From Candidatus Eremiobacterota bacterium (lineage in GTDB: Bacteria; Vulcanimicrobiota; Vulcanimicrobiia; Vulcanimicrobiales; Vulcanimicrobiaceae): a stretch of 64,000 nt of DNA. Location of the stretch: contig JAFAKB010000020.1 in assembly GCA_019235885.1 (NCBI GenBank), positions 1 to 64,000 of the forward strand, written 5' to 3'. Within the stretch, counting starts at the first letter, position 1. Each line of letters starts with the position of its first letter. Positions 9,386 through 17,932 of this stretch are shown here, one piece after another. A program made the translations under genes and the position numbers. The notes below the pieces were generated by a model, which was given only the letters and a program-made list of their open reading frames with translations, searched no databases and was not told the origin of the DNA.

Positions 9386-10515
9386 TCGCCTCGCCCGCGG
9401 CGGGCGTCTACGCTCACCTGCCGTTCTGCCCGTATATTTGCCCGTACTGCGACTTCGCGAAGTGGGCCTGGGACGACGCGCGCGCGGCGCGCTACGCCGA
9501 AGCGCTGCGCGCGGAGATCGCCGCGGCGCCGGCGGTGCGCGCGCGCACGCTGTTCTTTGGCGGCGGGACGCCGACCACGTATGCGCCCGAGATCATCGCC
9601 TCGCTGATCGGCGCGATACGGGAGCGGTTCGATTTGCCGCAGGACGCTGAAGTGACGACCGAAGCGAATCCCGATCCCTCGCTCGCCGCGCGCATTCCGG
9701 GGTTGCGGGCGGCCGGCGTGAACCGGCTGTCGATCGGCGTGCAGTCGTTCGATCCGCACGAGCTGCGCGTGCTCGGGCGTCAACACACGGCGTCCGACGT
9801 CGTGAACGCCGTGCGCGCGGCGCGCGCGGCAGGGTTCGACAACGTCTCGCTCGACTTGATCTTCGGCGTTCCGGGACAGAGCGAGGAGAGCTGGGCCGCG
9901 ACGCTCGACGCCGCGGTCGCGCTCGGCGTCGAGCACGTCTCGTGCTACGGGTTGACGATCGAGGAGGGGACGCCGTATGCGGCGTGGTTCGCGCGCGATC
10001 CGGGCGCGTTCGCCGGCGAATCGCGCGAGGCGCGGATGTACGCGATCGCGATCGACCGGCTGCGCACGGCCGGCTTCGAGCAGTACGAGATCTCCAACTG
10101 GGCCAAGCCCGGCTTCCGCTCCCAGCACAACGCGCTGTACTGGGCGAACGAACCGTATCTCGGCCTGGGAGTCGGCGCCGCGTCCTACCTCGGCGGCGTC
10201 CGCTCGACGCACACGCGCGAGCTTGCGGTCTACTGCGAGGCGGCGCTCGCCGGGCACCGCATCCCGGGCGAGAGCGAGCGGCTCGAAGGCGATGCGCAGG
10301 CCGGCGAGGCGATCATGCTCGCGCTGCGGACCGCGGAAGGAGTCGACCTGGCGCGGTTCCGCGAACGGTACGGCATCGATGTTGGCGAGCGGTACCGAAG
10401 CGTGGTCGACGAGCTGGTCGCGGCGGGGGTCCTGGCCGCCGACGCGGCCCAGCTGCGCCTTACCGAGCGCGGCCGGTTCGTAGCGAACGATGTCTGTGGC
10501 GCGTTCCTCGCCTGA
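9382..10515 (+). CDS. hemW: Radical SAM heme chaperone HemW
   Basis: 377 residues. The radical SAM cluster motif is CPYICPYC (CxxxCxxC) at residues about 14-21, preceded by AGVYAHLPF. FFGGGTPTTY, TEANPD, GVQSFDPHELRVLGR, DLIFGVPGQ and YEISNWAKPG follow, all typical of HemW. HemW hands heme to target proteins and is often misnamed oxygen-independent coproporphyrinogen oxidase. The GTG start overlaps the fakB stop by four bases (GTGA), so it belongs to the same operon. Only context and motifs separate it from HemN. Confidence 0.85.
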   Translation: MIASPAAGVYAHLPFCPYICPYCDFAKWAWDDARAARYAEALRAEIAAAPAVRARTLFFGGGTPTTYAPEIIASLIGAIRERFDLPQDAEVTTEANPDPSLAARIPGLRAAGVNRLSIGVQSFDPHELRVLGRQHTASDVVNAVRAARAAGFDNVSLDLIFGVPGQSEESWAATLDAAVALGVEHVSCYGLTIEEGTPYAAWFARDPGAFAGESREARMYAIAIDRLRTAGFEQYEISNWAKPGFRSQHNALYWANEPYLGLGVGAASYLGGVRSTHTRELAVYCEAALAGHRIPGESERLEGDAQAGEAIMLALRTAEGVDLARFRERYGIDVGERYRSVVDELVAAGVLAADAAQLRLTERGRFVANDVCGAFLA

Positions 10516-11605
10516 GCCCGGCCGCGGCATCGCGACCGCGGTCCTGCGCCTCGTCTTCGCGGCGATCTTCGGCACGACGGGCTTCCTGCTCGGGCGCGAG
10601 GCCTATCTGCACCTCATCTCGCTGCACGTCGCCAGCCAGTTCTGGCAGCTCACGTTCCTGGTCGTCGCGCCGGTGATCGGCGCGGTGATCGGCGTGCTGG
10701 TCGTGCCCGCCGCGCAACTGTTCTTCGAGACCGAGCTGCACGCGGTCGAGCGCGCGATCGACCGGCTCGCGCCGGGCGAGCTGGTCGGCGGCGCGATCGG
10801 GCTCGTCACCGGCCTGGTCATCGCCTTTTTGGTCAAGAGCATCCTGTTCGAGTTCGTCGCCTTCGCCGGGCCGACCGGCGGTTACATCGCGATCGCGCTG
10901 TACCTCGTGCTCTCGATCTTTGCGGCGTTTCTCGGCGCGCGCGTCGGCGCGAAGCAGCGCGTCGCGCTGGGCCGGATCGCCGCTCCCACCGCAGCTGCGA
11001 GCGGCGTCGGCGGCGAACCGAAGGTCCTCGACACCTCCGTGATCATCGACGGGCGCGTGCTGGACATCGTGCGCAGCGGCTTCCTCGAAGGGCCGCTGCT
11101 GCTGCCGCGCTTCGTGCTGCGCGAGCTGCAGCTGATCGCCGACAGCGCCGACTCGCTGAAGCGCACGCGCGGGCGGCGCGGCTTGGAGCTGCTCTCGGCG
11201 CTGCAGGCGACGGTGCCGATCGAGATCGTCGAGCGCGATCCGGAAGAGATCGGCCAAGTCGACGCCAAGCTGGTCCGGCTGGCGCAGGAGCGCGGCGCGA
11301 AGCTGATCACGAACGACTACAACTTGAACCGCGTGGCCCACGTCGAGGGAGTCGCGGTGCTGAACATCAACGAGCTCGCCAACGCGGTCAAACCGGTCTT
11401 GCTGCCGGGCGAGGAGCTGCGGGTCACGGTGATCCGCGAAGGGCGCGAGCCGCACCAAGGCGTCGGCTACCTCGACGACGGCACGATGATCGTGATCGAG
11501 AACGGCCGCCGCCTGATCGGCGACACGGTCGACGTGGCAGTAACCAGCGCGCTGCAGACGAACGCCGGCCGCATGATCTTCGCCCGGCCCAAACAGAGAG
11601 CATGA
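10490..11605 (+). CDS. Membrane-anchored PIN-TRAM domain protein (YacL type)
   Basis: 371 residues. Four hydrophobic segments lie in residues 1-150, then a PIN nuclease domain starting KVLDTSVIIDGRVLDIV, where the Asp residues are the expected metal ligands, with further acidic residues in ELQLIADS and a late LITNDYNLNRVA. A C-terminal TRAM-like domain (EELRVTVIREG, VGYLDDGTMIVIENG) may bind RNA. This is the YacL architecture, and the position just before ispD-ispF is the same as in Bacillus. Start ATG overlaps hemW by 26 bases. The substrate is not known. Confidence 0.88.
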   Translation: MSVARSSPEPGRGIATAVLRLVFAAIFGTTGFLLGREAYLHLISLHVASQFWQLTFLVVAPVIGAVIGVLVVPAAQLFFETELHAVERAIDRLAPGELVGGAIGLVTGLVIAFLVKSILFEFVAFAGPTGGYIAIALYLVLSIFAAFLGARVGAKQRVALGRIAAPTAAASGVGGEPKVLDTSVIIDGRVLDIVRSGFLEGPLLLPRFVLRELQLIADSADSLKRTRGRRGLELLSALQATVPIEIVERDPEEIGQVDAKLVRLAQERGAKLITNDYNLNRVAHVEGVAVLNINELANAVKPVLLPGEELRVTVIREGREPHQGVGYLDDGTMIVIENGRRLIGDTVDVAVTSALQTNAGRMIFARPKQRA

Positions 11606-11789: not shown

Positions 11790-12749
11790 ATGATCTGGGG
11801 CGCGGTTATCGTTGCTGCCGGGCGTGGAACGCGCTTCGGCAGACCGAAGCAACTGATCGAGGTCGCCGGGAAGCCGATGATCGCGTGGTCGGTCGAAGCG
11901 TTCGCGGCGATGCCGGAGATCGCGGAGCTCGCGATCGTCACCGAGCCGGAGTTCGTCGAACGAATCGAAGCGATCGCGCACGCGCGCGTGCAGCATGCGA
12001 GCGTGCTGGTCGTGCGCGGCGGCGACGATCGCCAAGCCAGCGTGCGCCACGGGCTGGAGGCGCTCTCGAACGACGTCGCGGCGGTGCTCGTCCACGACGG
12101 TGCGCGGCCGCTGGTGCAGACCTCGGACGTGCGTAACGGGATGCGCCCCGTGCGGCCCGGCACGGCGTCGCTGCTGGCGACGCCGCTGGTCGACACGGTG
12201 AAAGTCGCCGACGCCGCGGGCAAAGTCACGCGGACGCTCGACCGCGGCGAGCTGTGGGCCGCGCAGACGCCGCAGTTCGCGACCGCGCGCGATTTGCGCC
12301 GCGCGCACGCCGAGGCGCTGCGCCACGGCGCGCAGCCCGCGACGGACGACGCCGCGCTGCTCGAGCGCGCCGGGCTGGACGTGGTGATCGTGGAAGGCTC
12401 GCCGGACAACTTCAAGGTGACGCTGCCGAACGATCTCGCGCGCGCCGAGGCCCTGCTGCGCGACCGCGGCGAGCAAGGGACGGAAGAAGAGGTTCTGCTC
12501 GTCGAGTGTTACGTCGAGCCGCGCGCCGTCGACGCGGTCCTGCTCGAGCTGGAAGCGCGCGACGCGCGCGTCGACGTGATCGACCGCGACCTGCCGAGCG
12601 CGACCGTCATCCGCGCCTACGCGACCAACGCCGCGCTGCGCGGCTTCGGCTCGCGGCTGCACGCGCTCGCCGGCGAAGACGCGGTCTACACCGCGCACCT
12701 CTCGCACACGGCGCCGCGCAGCCCGAGCCCGCTCGACCGCGAGCACTGA
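11790..12749 (+). CDS. ispD: 2-C-methyl-D-erythritol 4-phosphate cytidylyltransferase IspD with an extra EF-G domain V-like C-terminal domain
   Basis: Residues 1-225 are a normal IspD: AAGRGTRFGRPKQ (CTP binding), VRGGDDRQASVRHGL, VHDGARPL, ATPLVDTVKVAD, AAQTPQFA, ATDDAALLE and GSPDNFKVTLPNDLARAE. IspD joins CTP and methylerythritol 4-phosphate in the MEP isoprenoid pathway. Family members are about 230 residues; this one is 319. Residues about 232-305 read LLVECYVEPRAVDAVLLELE, then ATVIRAYATNAALRGFGS and RLHALAGEDAVYTAHLSH, which follows the beta-alpha-beta pattern and motif order of elongation factor G domain V (also seen in YigZ-type proteins). The stop overlaps the ispF ATG (TGATG). Confidence 0.9.
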   Translation: MIWGAVIVAAGRGTRFGRPKQLIEVAGKPMIAWSVEAFAAMPEIAELAIVTEPEFVERIEAIAHARVQHASVLVVRGGDDRQASVRHGLEALSNDVAAVLVHDGARPLVQTSDVRNGMRPVRPGTASLLATPLVDTVKVADAAGKVTRTLDRGELWAAQTPQFATARDLRRAHAEALRHGAQPATDDAALLERAGLDVVIVEGSPDNFKVTLPNDLARAEALLRDRGEQGTEEEVLLVECYVEPRAVDAVLLELEARDARVDVIDRDLPSATVIRAYATNAALRGFGSRLHALAGEDAVYTAHLSHTAPRSPSPLDREH

Positions 12750-13270
12750 TGCATCCGCCGCATTTTCGCGTGGGGCACGGGTTCGACGCGCACCGGCTCG
12801 TCGAAGGACGGAGATTCGTGCTCGGGGGGGTGCGGATCGAGCACGAGCGCGGACCGCTCGGACACAGCGACGGCGACGCGCTCACGCACGCGATCTGCGA
12901 CGCGCTGCTCGGCGCGTGCGCGCTCGGCGACCTCGGCGCGCACTTTCCGGATACCGACCCGCAGTGGAAGGACGCGGACTCGCTGCGGCTGCTCGCGGCG
13001 TGCCACGAGCTCGCGGTGCGCCACGGCTGGACGATCGCGAACGTCGACGCGACCGTCGTGGTTCAGCAGCCTAGGCTCTCACCGCAGGTCCCGCTGATGC
13101 GGGACGCGCTCGCCGACGTACTGGGTCTGGACGTCGCGCGCATCAGCGTGAAGGCGAAGACGAGCGAGGGGATGGGATACACGGGTGACGGGACGGGGCT
13201 CGCGGCGTACGCGGTCGTCCTCGTCGAGACCCTCGAACGGCGCGAACCAGATCACAGCGCTTTCACCTGA
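12749..13270 (+). CDS. ispF: 2-C-methyl-D-erythritol 2,4-cyclodiphosphate synthase
   Basis: 173 residues. VGHGFDAHRL carries the zinc ligands Asp and His, HSDGDALTHAICDALLGA the next His, HFPDTDPQWKDADS the substrate loop, and KAKTSEGMGYTG the C-terminal signature. IspF cyclises CDP-methylerythritol phosphate and sits next to IspD in the pathway and on the chromosome, with a one-base overlap of stop and start. The C-terminus extends about 12 residues past the usual end, overlapping a convergent small ORF. Confidence 0.95.
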   Translation: MHPPHFRVGHGFDAHRLVEGRRFVLGGVRIEHERGPLGHSDGDALTHAICDALLGACALGDLGAHFPDTDPQWKDADSLRLLAACHELAVRHGWTIANVDATVVVQQPRLSPQVPLMRDALADVLGLDVARISVKAKTSEGMGYTGDGTGLAAYAVVLVETLERREPDHSAFT

Positions 13271-13518: not shown

Positions 13519-16305
13519 TTACGGACTCGGGGAGGCCGCCTCGTCGAGCAGCGCCGACAGCTCCCGCCGGCTCGCGACGCCGAGCTTGCGATAGGCCGAG
13601 GCGATGTGCGTCTCGACGGTCCGCTCGGAGATCACGAGCGTGTCCGCGATCGCGCGGGTCGGGTGCCCGGCGGCGACCAGCCCGGCGATCTCGCGCTCGC
13701 GCGCCGTCAGCGTCGCCTCGCCGCGGCGGCGGGGCGCCGCGGCGGCCGTCTCCGTGAGCCGCCGAACCTTGCCCGCGGCCCCGATCTTGCGGAAGAGCGC
13801 GACGGCCTCCGCCGTGCGGCCGGCCAGCTCGAGCGCGAAGCCCTCTTCGGTCGTCCACCCGGCCGTTCGAAAGGCGTCGACCGCCTCGGACGCCAGCGCG
13901 ACGGCGTCGTCCCGGCGGCGCTTGCGCAAGGCTTCGCGCGCGTCGGCGAGCGCCAGAAACCCGCGCGCCGGCCACGCGCCCTCGCGCGCCGCCACGACCG
14001 CGAGCGCCTCGCGCGCCGCGGCGCGCTCCTCCGCCCGGCCGCAGCCGGCGGCGGCCTCGTGCAGCCAGTACGGCGGCTCGGCGTGCGGGATGATCCGCAA
14101 CGCGTCGCCGACCAAGGCCGACGCCTCGGCGGTGCGGCCGGCGTTCAGCAAGTCGAGCGCGACCGCGCCCGCCAGCAGCGCCGCCGCCGACGTGTCCGCT
14201 TCGTGAATCGCCGCCCCCGCCGCCGTCAGCGCCTGCTCTCGCAGCGCGGCGTCGTCGTTCCCGCTCAGCGTCGACCAGCGCAGCGCGATGCCGAGCGACC
14301 AGCGCAAGATCGTTCCGACGTCGTGTCGGATCGCATCGGCGCGCGCGAGGTTCTCCGCGGTAGCGGCCGCGTCGCCCGCCAGCAGCGCGCCCAGCGCGGC
14401 GTTCTGCGAGAGCCAGGCGACGAAGCGCAGGTTCTTCATCGCCTGCGCCACCGCAAGCCCTTCGGCGTAGAGCGCGCGCGCGACCGCGAGCGGGCCGTAC
14501 GCCAACTCGACGTTGGCGTGGTTGTTGAGCGCGCGCACCAGCACGTCGAAGTCCGAGCGCTCGCGTGCTTCGCGCTGCGCCTGCCCGAAGCGCTCGCGCG
14601 CTTCGGCGGCGCGGCCCAGAATGCCGAGGCAGAACGCATAGTTCCCGGCAAAGCGCGCCGCCGACGGAGCTTCGCCGCGCGCCGCGAGCCGGTCGGCGCG
14701 CTGCAGGTGAATCAGCGCCTCTTCGGCGCGGCCGCGCGCCGTCAGAAGCCCGGCGGTCATCGTTTCGGCGTCGAAGCGCATCGCCGAATCCTCGTCCTGC
14801 AGGCGCTCCACGACCCCGAGCGCCTCGCGCACGCTTTCCTCGAAACGGCCTTGGTCGAAGAGCAGGTACGCCTTGCGCAGCGAAAGGCGGTTGGCGTCGA
14901 GATCGTCACCCACCGATGCGATCGCGTCGGAAAGCCAGCGCACCGCTTCGGCCACGTCCCCGGTCGCATAGAGCGCCTCGGCGGCTTTCTCCGCCAGCAG
15001 CGCGCGCTGGAACGGTTCCCGCGCGAAGTCGCAGGCGCGCACGTAGTGGCGCGCCGCGTCGGCGTACGCGAAGAGCGAGACCGCGTGGTCGCCGGCACGC
15101 TCGTTCCAACCGATGGCGTGCTCGGTGTCGCGCGCGCGCCAGGCGTGCTCGGCGATAGCGGTGACGTCGAGCGGCTCTTCGTGCGCGAGCGCTTGGGCCA
15201 CGCGCGCATGGAGCTCGAGCGCCTCGGCGCGCAGCATCTCGCCGTAGACCGCTTCGCGCGTGAGCGCGTGCCGAAACGCGAACGAGTCGCCGCGCTCGTC
15301 GTGCGCCTCTTCGACGATCAACTGCAAATCACGGGCGCGGCGCAGCGCCGCGTAGACCTCGACGGGCGGTACGCCGGTGAGGTGGGCGACGAAGCGCGCG
15401 GAGAAGCGCTTGCCGACGACCGCCGCATGCAGCAGCACGTCGCGGTCGCGTTGCGGCAGGGAGGCGAAACGCTCGCGGACGGTGACGCGAATGCTGGCCG
15501 GAACCGCCACGCTCGAGCCGTGGCGGTCGCGCCGCTCGAGCGCGCCGCGCAGCAGCTCTTCGGCAAAGAGCGGCCGTCCCTCGGAGAGCTCGCGGATCTG
15601 CGCGAGGGCTGCGGGCGGGAGCACGCGATCGACGTCGTTCAGCGCCGCGTGGAGCAATCGGTCCACGTCGTTGTCGCCGAGCGGCTCCAGCGTTAGCGTC
15701 TCCTCCGCGTCGCGCTCGAGCGCGCTCAGCACGCGCACGCGTTCGGCTTCGGTCTGCGCGTCCTCCAGCCGGTACGTCGCAACGAAGGTGATCGGCTCGG
15801 TCGCCAGACGCCGCGTCAGAAATCGCAGCAGCTCGACGGTTCCGCTGTCGGCCCAGTGCAGGTCCTCCAGCGCGACGAGCAAGCCGTTCGGACAACTGCG
15901 CGCCAGGTCGGCGAACGTCGTCGCGACCGAGGCGAAACGGCGCGACTTCTCGTCGTTCCCGCCCTCGCTGCCCGCGCGCATTTCGCGCTCGAGGCCGGCG
16001 TCCGCGCCCAGCGCGTCGAGCGCTTCGACGATCGCGGCGTACGGCGCGTTCGCATATTCGCGCACGGTGGTGACGACGGTGCGCAGGCCGTCGCGCGACG
16101 CGGCGGCGAGGAACTCCGCCAGTAGCCGCGTCTTGCCGACGCCCGCTTCACCGCGCACGACGACGAGCGCGGAACGGCGCGACGCGCCGCGGCGCGCGCG
16201 ACCGATCAGGTGCGCAAGCTCGCTCCGGCGGCCGACCAGCTCGCGGCAAAACACCCCGGAAGAGATCACGGTGAGCGCGTTTCGACGAGCTGGCGCCCGA
16301 CGCAT
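13519..16305 (-). CDS. LuxR-family transcriptional regulator with N-terminal AAA ATPase and TPR-like repeats
   Basis: 928 residues from ATG 16305. Order of domains: FCRELVGRRSELAHL, Walker A GEAGVGKTRLL at about residue 50, Walker B LLVALEDLHWAD, a winged-helix stretch, a long Ala-rich helical repeat region (residues about 400-830), and a C-terminal LuxR helix-turn-helix (LTAREREIAGLVAAGHPTRA, ERTVETHIASAYRKLGV). This is the LAL/MalT-like STAND regulator architecture: ATP-driven oligomerisation on an inducer, then DNA binding. The frame stays open upstream to 16761, but that part is antisense to the GluRS-like gene and low-complexity Arg/Ser, so I reject it. It interrupts the conserved ispF-gltX order. 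Confidence 0.88.
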   Translation of the reverse strand: MRRAPARRNALTVISSGVFCRELVGRRSELAHLIGRARRGASRRSALVVVRGEAGVGKTRLLAEFLAAASRDGLRTVVTTVREYANAPYAAIVEALDALGADAGLEREMRAGSEGGNDEKSRRFASVATTFADLARSCPNGLLVALEDLHWADSGTVELLRFLTRRLATEPITFVATYRLEDAQTEAERVRVLSALERDAEETLTLEPLGDNDVDRLLHAALNDVDRVLPPAALAQIRELSEGRPLFAEELLRGALERRDRHGSSVAVPASIRVTVRERFASLPQRDRDVLLHAAVVGKRFSARFVAHLTGVPPVEVYAALRRARDLQLIVEEAHDERGDSFAFRHALTREAVYGEMLRAEALELHARVAQALAHEEPLDVTAIAEHAWRARDTEHAIGWNERAGDHAVSLFAYADAARHYVRACDFAREPFQRALLAEKAAEALYATGDVAEAVRWLSDAIASVGDDLDANRLSLRKAYLLFDQGRFEESVREALGVVERLQDEDSAMRFDAETMTAGLLTARGRAEEALIHLQRADRLAARGEAPSAARFAGNYAFCLGILGRAAEARERFGQAQREARERSDFDVLVRALNNHANVELAYGPLAVARALYAEGLAVAQAMKNLRFVAWLSQNAALGALLAGDAAATAENLARADAIRHDVGTILRWSLGIALRWSTLSGNDDAALREQALTAAGAAIHEADTSAAALLAGAVALDLLNAGRTAEASALVGDALRIIPHAEPPYWLHEAAAGCGRAEERAAAREALAVVAAREGAWPARGFLALADAREALRKRRRDDAVALASEAVDAFRTAGWTTEEGFALELAGRTAEAVALFRKIGAAGKVRRLTETAAAAPRRRGEATLTAREREIAGLVAAGHPTRAIADTLVISERTVETHIASAYRKLGVASRRELSALLDEAASPSP

Positions 16306-16340
16306 GGTTTGGCAGGCCTGAGCCCGAACGGCCGAGCGGT

Positions 16341-16472
16341 ATGGTGAGTGAACTCGACGACCGCTACACGATCTCGGCCAGCAACATGCCCGGCAAGCCG
16401 GGCCCCGGCGGCAGCGACGAAGAACCCGAAGACGACGAGTCCGACGAAGAAGGCGAAGAAGAGCCAGACTGA
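16341..16472 (+). CDS. 43-residue acidic ORF upstream of the GluRS-like gene
   Basis: Begins MVSELDDRYTISASNMPGKP; from residue 25 nearly every residue is Asp, Glu, Pro or Ser, 15 of them acidic. The TGA stop (16470-16472) overlaps a CTG (16469-16471) that would start the GluRS-like gene, and its purine-rich 3' end (GAAGAAGAG) could serve as that gene's Shine-Dalgarno sequence. Either a small protein or a coupling leader. No homologue recognised; no signal peptide. Confidence 0.4.
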   Translation: MVSELDDRYTISASNMPGKPGPGGSDEEPEDDESDEEGEEEPD

Positions 16473-17932
16473 AGACGGCGGACCGTCTCGACGCCGACCG
16501 CCCACTGCGCGTCCGTTTCGCCGTCGCACCGGACGGTGAGCTCGACGCAGCGGGCGCGCGGGCCGCGCTCTTCAACTGGCTGCTCGCGCGCACGACGGGC
16601 GGCGCGCTGGTGGTGCGCGTCGAGGACCGCAGCGTTTCGCCGGCCGAGACGGCGTCGAATGATCCGCAGTCGCTCGCCGACCTGCGCTGGCTCGGCCTGA
16701 CGTGGGACGAGGGACCCGGTGCGAGCGGCTCTGCCGGACCGTACCGGCAGTCGGAGCGCACCGAGGTCTACCGCGCGCACTTGGAGACGCTCGTTGCCGG
16801 CGGCAAAGCGCGCGAGCGCGACGGTGCGCTCGACTTCAGCGTTCCGCCCGGCACCACGGTGATCCACGATCTCGTGCTGGGCGACGTCTCGATCGACCAT
16901 AGTACGATTTCGCACTTTGCGCTGCGGAGCTCGAGCGGTGCGTTTTCGCGGGCGTTCCTCAGCACGGTCGACGACGCGGTGATGCGGATCGACCTGGTGC
17001 TGCAAGAGCAGCACCTCGAGGACGCGCTGCGCCAGATCGTGCTCGCGCGCGCGCTCGGCTACGAGCCGCCGCGCTTCGCCCATGTCGGGCCGCTGCTCGG
17101 TCCGGATCACCACGCGCTCGCGCACCGGCCCGGCGCGCCGACGATCGGCGCGCTGCGCCGCGCCGGCTTTCTGCCCGCGGCGGTGATCGAGCATCTCGCG
17201 CTGCTGGGCTGGTCGCCGCCGGACGGCCGCGAGCGTTTCAGCCTGGCGGAGCTGACGGCGGCGTTCTCGCTCGCGCGCGTGCACGGCTCGCCGGCCGTCT
17301 TCGACGAGGCGCGCTTGCGGGCGTTCAACGCGCGCGCGTTGCGCGCGCTTCCGCGCGAGGAGTACCGTGCGCTGATCGCCGAGCGCATGCAGCGCGCGGG
17401 ACTGCTCGAGACGCCGGTCCCGCCGGCCGCGGAGCGCTGGGTCGGCACCTTTCTCGACGCCTTCGGCGACGAGGTGCACACGCTCGGCGAGGCGCTCGCG
17501 GAGATCGCCGCGTTGCGCGCCGAGGCGGTGACGCTCCCGGCGCTTGAGCTGGAGCGATTGCGCAACCGCCAAGTGCTGTTCTTTCTCGACGCGGTCGCGC
17601 AGTACGTCGACGATCAGCCCGAGCTGCGCGGCTTGCCGCTCGCGCACGACGTTCCCGCGATCGCGGAGGAGTTCGGAATCGCGAAGGACGACGCGTTCGC
17701 CGCGCTCCGGATGGCGCTGACCGGAGCGCACGACGGGCCGCCGCTCACCCTGCTCTTCCCGCTGCTCGGCCACGAGCGGATCATGATCCGCATCGGCGCG
17801 ATCAGCTCGCACATCTTGCACGGCCGCGGGCTGGAGCCGATCAAGTACGGTCCGGGCGGCGTCCCGTTCGAGACGATCCAGCCGGTGCGGCCAGCGCGCG
17901 AAGCAACCGGGCACGATCCGAACGGGTCGTAA
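16469..17932 (+). CDS. Glutamyl-tRNA synthetase homologue with degenerate catalytic motifs
   Basis: Between ispF and cysE, the position of gltX in related gene orders. The frame holds a full-length class I GluRS (487 residues if started at CTG 16469). LRVRFAVAPDG, ALFNWLLARTTGG, SDADLRWLGLTWDEGP-like and PYRQSER segments, and GFLPAAVIEHLALLGWSP, are clearly GluRS. However the HIGH region reads GELDAAGAR, the IEDTD segment reads VEDRS, and the KLSKRHG segment reads ALAHRPG. The Arg of RFAPSP is kept but the Ser is lost. The conserved N-terminus lies upstream of the first GTG (16610), and no ATG, GTG or TTG exists in frame before it. It is probably not a normal synthetase; a regulatory or modified-substrate paralogue is possible. 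Confidence 0.75.
   Translation: MKTADRLDADRPLRVRFAVAPDGELDAAGARAALFNWLLARTTGGALVVRVEDRSVSPAETASNDPQSLADLRWLGLTWDEGPGASGSAGPYRQSERTEVYRAHLETLVAGGKARERDGALDFSVPPGTTVIHDLVLGDVSIDHSTISHFALRSSSGAFSRAFLSTVDDAVMRIDLVLQEQHLEDALRQIVLARALGYEPPRFAHVGPLLGPDHHALAHRPGAPTIGALRRAGFLPAAVIEHLALLGWSPPDGRERFSLAELTAAFSLARVHGSPAVFDEARLRAFNARALRALPREEYRALIAERMQRAGLLETPVPPAAERWVGTFLDAFGDEVHTLGEALAEIAALRAEAVTLPALELERLRNRQVLFFLDAVAQYVDDQPELRGLPLAHDVPAIAEEFGIAKDDAFAALRMALTGAHDGPPLTLLFPLLGHERIMIRIGAISSHILHGRGLEPIKYGPGGVPFETIQPVRPAREATGHDPNGS

Follow-up and report, generated by a model that had tools for sequence, protein, structure and literature searches.

Human ISPD (CRPPA) is an enzyme of the IspD fold that carries an extra C-terminal domain of a different fold, and the C-terminal domain of YigZ/IMPACT (DUF1949) places a fold like that of elongation factor G (EF-G) domain V on a non-translation protein. 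Fusions of IspD with IspF also occur (PMC5821942), and in these bifunctional IspDF proteins the C-terminal extension of IspD is IspF itself. The literature characterizes IspD as evolutionarily rigid (PMC10663253), which makes an accessory domain on this enzyme unexpected, and our literature search found nothing relevant on a fusion of IspD with EF-G or on the IspD of Eremiobacterota.

In the window (the whole 64,000-nt stretch of Vulcanimicrobiaceae DNA that we analyzed), we examined a 319-aa open reading frame with an ATG start, located exactly where the sequence-only reading had placed it. Like known IspDs (PF01128/TIGR00453), its product has a complete catalytic domain with invariant active-site residues and its gene lies beside ispF; however, it has approximately 90 additional residues, whereas the matched bacterial and plant IspDs in the PDB comprise 203–236 residues and align with its catalytic domain. 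The extension resembles EF-G domain V (EFG_C, PF00679) in sequence profile, in a gapless 76-column alignment and in a fold match of 0.9–1.0 Å, but unlike EF-G domain V it sits on a metabolic enzyme, without a GTPase domain or domains II–IV, is acidic and has lost most signature residues. In contrast to IspDF, IspF is here a separate, overlapping gene. Human ISPD (4cvh) was among the matches, although this match spans approximately 243 of its 391 residues, and in contrast to YigZ/IMPACT, the tails gave no DUF1949 match in Pfam at E-values up to 10. The features of the locus are as follows:

10490–11605, + strand: PIN-TRAM protein gene upstream of ispD (PF01850 and PF01938)
11790–12749, + strand: ispD open reading frame
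11790–12473, + strand: IspD catalytic domain, residues 1–228, ending in the C-terminal helix 213–228
12285–12323, + strand: IspD helix 166–178, candidate tail-docking surface (R167, E175, R178; the top three columns of a tree-controlled scan, suggestive)
12474–12482, + strand: linker, residues 229–231, which in the full-length model is the sole stretch outside helix and strand separating the final helix of IspD from the first strand of the tail
12483–12716, + strand: EF-G domain V-like tail, residues 232–309, in the order beta-alpha-beta-beta-alpha-beta
12573–12617, + strand: tail-specific motif, residues 262–276, D-x-[IV]-[DE]-R-[DE]-L-P-x5-RA, not in EF-G
12717–12746, + strand: C-terminal end, residues 310–319, variable, with a pLDDT of 61 in the last block and a length that differs among relatives
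12749–13270, + strand: ispF (YgbB; PF02542, E = 9.9e-64), sharing one base of its ATG with the ispD stop codon (TGATG)

Residues 5–224 matched PF01128 with an E-value of 8.5e-63 (212.5 bits against a cut-off of 27), and the TIGR00453 score of 218.3 bits lay above the curated equivalog cut-off of 181.3. R15, K20, D103, R106, T136, R152, and K209, which we take to have catalytic roles, were among the IspD residues invariant across 60 sequences, and the full-length model matched Bacillus subtilis IspD (5ddt) with an E-value of 5e-23. By its sequence the protein is a complete IspD, with predicted conversion of CTP and MEP to CDP-ME.

The sequence-only reading had proposed that this complete IspD is followed by some 90 residues forming a ferredoxin-like module related to EF-G domain V, and both parts of that proposal were borne out. 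Past residue ~228 the extra sequence is real, since the same tail was present in 10 other genomes of the genus; the domain itself comprises approximately 80 residues after a linker of about 3 residues. EFG_C was matched in all 17 tails tested (best E = 6.7e-11) and was the only family common to all of them, although the window's tail by itself is a weak member (E = 0.0027, 18.1 bits against a gathering score of 27.9). A profile built from the tails returned EF-G or its mitochondrial relatives as each of its best 30 PDB sequence matches, and its next genomic matches after IspD were the C-termini of EF-G open reading frames of approximately 700 aa (E = 6e-8 in the window's genome). Alignment of the tails with Eremiobacterota EF-G domain V by hhalign was gapless across 76 columns (E = 1.1e-9). 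When AlphaFold was given the tail only, it predicted a beta-alpha-beta-beta-alpha-beta fold with a mean pLDDT of 87.9 (approximately 95 in the core), and Foldseek matched this model best to EF-G and EF-2 in the PDB, at 0.9–1.0 Å over 73–74 residues; the best 50 matches comprised EF-G, EF-2, and related translation GTPases together with two spliceosome entries, which are presumably explained by an EF-2-like component. In a tree that included 19 domain V sequences of EF-G, LepA, and TypA, all of the tails formed one clade with 100/100 support. Chance similarity to EF-G is ruled out by the profile, fold and clade evidence. The tailed protein contained only IspD-type folds and EFG_C, with no GTPase domain and none of domains II–IV of EF-G, and the window's genome encodes its true EF-G as a separate 711-aa open reading frame, along with three further EFG_C proteins, all on other contigs. 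We conclude that this is a new domain architecture on a known enzyme and that its identification is secure.

We then considered how widely the tail occurs. Every one of the 11 Vulcanimicrobium genomes examined, the window's included, encodes it, and in the 10 others the same tailed gene has 76–85% identity and, where its open reading frame is complete, a length of 314–320 aa. Among 99 genomes sampled from the family Vulcanimicrobiaceae (97 with an IspD match), 35 had the tail, distributed over 15 genera. A survey of 149 Eremiobacterota genomes with a profile of 17 tails gave 35 matches that scored 92 bits or more, every one within this family, the next being a 40-bit match to an EF-G-sized open reading frame; no tail was found outside the family among these 149 genomes. 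Beyond the phylum, coverage consisted of one pattern-based scan with a reach of close relatives. The sequence-only reading had named absence of the tail from close relatives as grounds for refutation, and the proposal passed this check, since every genome of the genus examined has the tail; it is nevertheless lacking in the majority of the family's other genera and elsewhere in the phylum. A frameshift or read-through artefact was ruled out, given that the tail is in frame and that 35 genomes conserve it.

In the tail-less relatives examined, IspD stops at approximately residues 223–238 and is directly followed by ispF, so that ispD-ispF adjacency is independent of tail presence. The tail was not found as a free-standing gene in tail-less species; the other matches to its profile (at E-values up to 1e-4) were EF-G-sized open reading frames or fragments of such. 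One tail-less relative (L028, G032:C79:6282-6962) has a single internal TAG stop in its ispD frame, which is either an assembly error or a broken gene.

When a tree was built from IspF together with the IspD catalytic domain, tail state had to change eight times along it, and strongly supported branches forced at least five of these changes. The main groups of the tail tree agreed with this IspD and IspF tree. Tail-less species sit within three otherwise tailed genera (g18, g50, and g52) as well as between genera. Since the tails form one clade, repeated independent fusion was rejected. The simplest account, and the one that best fits these trees, would be one fusion early in the history of the family and several clean losses thereafter; ispD may also have been transferred from one lineage to another. 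On the phylogenetic evidence, the tail is inherited together with IspD. The tail-less IspDs in g18, g50, and g52 (L141, L139, and L140, from genomes G117, G100, and G104) represent clean losses and provide natural controls.

With respect to the position of the tail on the enzyme, the full-length model had a pTM of 0.90 and a mean pLDDT of 94.7, and tail strand 4 extended to residue 309 in this model, compared with approximately residue 304 in the tail-only model. A chain with a quarter of its length moving freely would be expected to score lower overall, and this, together with the ~3-residue linker, suggests that the tail probably packs on IspD in a fixed position. A tree-controlled scan of IspD and IspF for columns that track tail presence (466 column/class tests) ranked three positions of helix 166–178 highest: along with the tail, position 167 loses an acidic residue and takes on a basic one, position 175 acquires an acidic residue, and position 178 a basic one. 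This helix ranked 2 of 64 in a side-flip test. Column 167 by itself did not reach significance in the tree-controlled test, as no single column can with only about five strongly supported independent pairs, and we regard this helix as a suggestive lead for the docking surface rather than as a result. Contact through helix 166–178 cannot be universal, because in genus g18 helix 166–183 is approximately five residues shorter and the tail is retained. The tailed IspDs of g18 (L019, L137, L138, L142, L143, and L144) also lack the SH-x-AP-R end of tail strand 4, and this paired change could mark a contact between tail and enzyme.

The reading that we favor, at a probability of roughly 0.55, is that the tail is an EF-G domain V which has been exapted and, docked on the IspD that carries it, serves as a stabilizing or tuning module. 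A copy of EF-G domain V became attached to the C-terminus of IspD in an ancestor within one Eremiobacterota family. Joined by a short and rigid linker, it would now pack on its own IspD, with the face of helix 166–178 as the probable contact. From there it would act on stability, dimer geometry or active-site dynamics, would be sufficiently dispensable to explain its several losses, and would have no remaining role in translation.

It is possible, if rather doubtful, that the tail is instead an allosteric sensor whose ligand, a small molecule or a downstream isoprenoid, alters IspD activity on binding, in the manner of ACT domains. Ferredoxin-like domains are frequent C-terminal ligand sensors on biosynthetic enzymes, and repeated loss of the tail fits a regulatory add-on. 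A new motif, D-x-[IV]-[DE]-R-[DE]-L-P-x5-RA, has moreover arisen and is invariant or nearly so: D262, R266, L268, P269, R275, and A276 were invariant in 17 aligned tails, and with the exception of A276 the corresponding EF-G columns hold other residues. Against a sensor, no ligand-binding family was detected, EFG_C being the sole family found across the tails. We know of no bacterium in which the third MEP-pathway step has a regulatory domain, and we consider it somewhat improbable that a translation-factor domain has here been turned into an allosteric regulator of IspD that places flux through this step under ligand control.

An unlikely reading is that the module serves as a docking site for another protein, such as IspF, IspE or an isoprenoid-pathway client. 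The overlapping stop and start codons of ispD and ispF, together with the IspD-IspF fusions known from other organisms (PMC5821942), would suit a partnership of this kind, but ispD and ispF adjoin with or without the tail, and none of the ten strongest tail-tracking tests in the 466-test scan fell in IspF. Complexes of IspD, IspE, and IspF have also not been detected in Escherichia coli or B. subtilis (PMC5821942).

The sequence-only reading had further suggested that the tail might bind RNA or link isoprenoid synthesis to translation. Genuine homology to EF-G domain V and the shared fold would be in keeping with retained binding to the ribosome or RNA, but of the 48 signature residues (those invariant in Eremiobacterota EF-G domain V), only 5 were kept in at least 80% of tails, the remaining 43 not being kept in most. 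The RRG, MFGYATD, and TQGR motifs were mostly not retained in most tails, so that the conserved surface signature of EF-G is mostly lost, and all 32 tails carried a net charge of −4 to −11 (mean −6.7), compared with −1 to −4 for EF-G. The loss of the signature and the acidity of the tail argue against ribosome or RNA binding; both suggestions are thereby disfavored, and we consider any surviving coupling to translation very improbable. Dimerization of IspD, the third function suggested by the sequence-only reading, may still apply as a structural role. The tail is homologous to EF-G domain V, yet it is not a working EF-G domain V.

Equally improbable is that the tail does nothing itself and is carried as a tolerated passenger. 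Several losses without trace would suit this reading, but it is opposed by 11 invariant residues among tails only 41–84% identical to the window's tail, and by the pN/pS values: in each of three separate groups, the tail core equaled the catalytic domain (0.312 vs. 0.330, 0.307 vs. 0.302, and 0.299 vs. 0.274). Where the tail is present, it is, as estimated from these ratios, under purifying selection equal to that on the catalytic domain. In terms somewhat broader than the favored reading of a stabilizing or tuning module, the tail, which selection has maintained in roughly one in three of the species sampled, probably serves the enzyme structurally or as a regulator rather than connecting it to protein synthesis.

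The locus provides a clear, single-origin case of a core translation-factor domain reused on a metabolic enzyme with loss of its ribosome-facing signature, and the related species with and without the tail constitute a natural experiment. A tailed IspD (L008) is also encoded by the cultured Vulcanimicrobium alpinum (alpinus) WC8-2, for which a chromosome has been published (PMC9758169), and the function of the tail is therefore directly testable. Two photosynthetic reaction-centre genes were present in this genome (G006), as expected of a phototroph.

Two further features of the window lie downstream of ispF. Judged by eye, a long frame at 13519–16761 (− strand), between ispF and a GluRS-like gene, resembles a large ATPase regulator whose C-terminus is of the LuxR type. 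The GluRS-like open frame itself (16505–17932, + strand) has both signature motifs apparently degraded when read by eye, with DGELDAAGAR in place of the usual TGHLHVGGAR and ALAHRPGA in place of the usual KLSKRHGA. Approximately 60 profile positions are missing from the middle of its sequence, and the degraded first motif precedes its listed start, a GTG at 16610. This frame looks like a degenerate or inactive synthetase paralogue, and another synthetase of the same family is encoded on contig C18.
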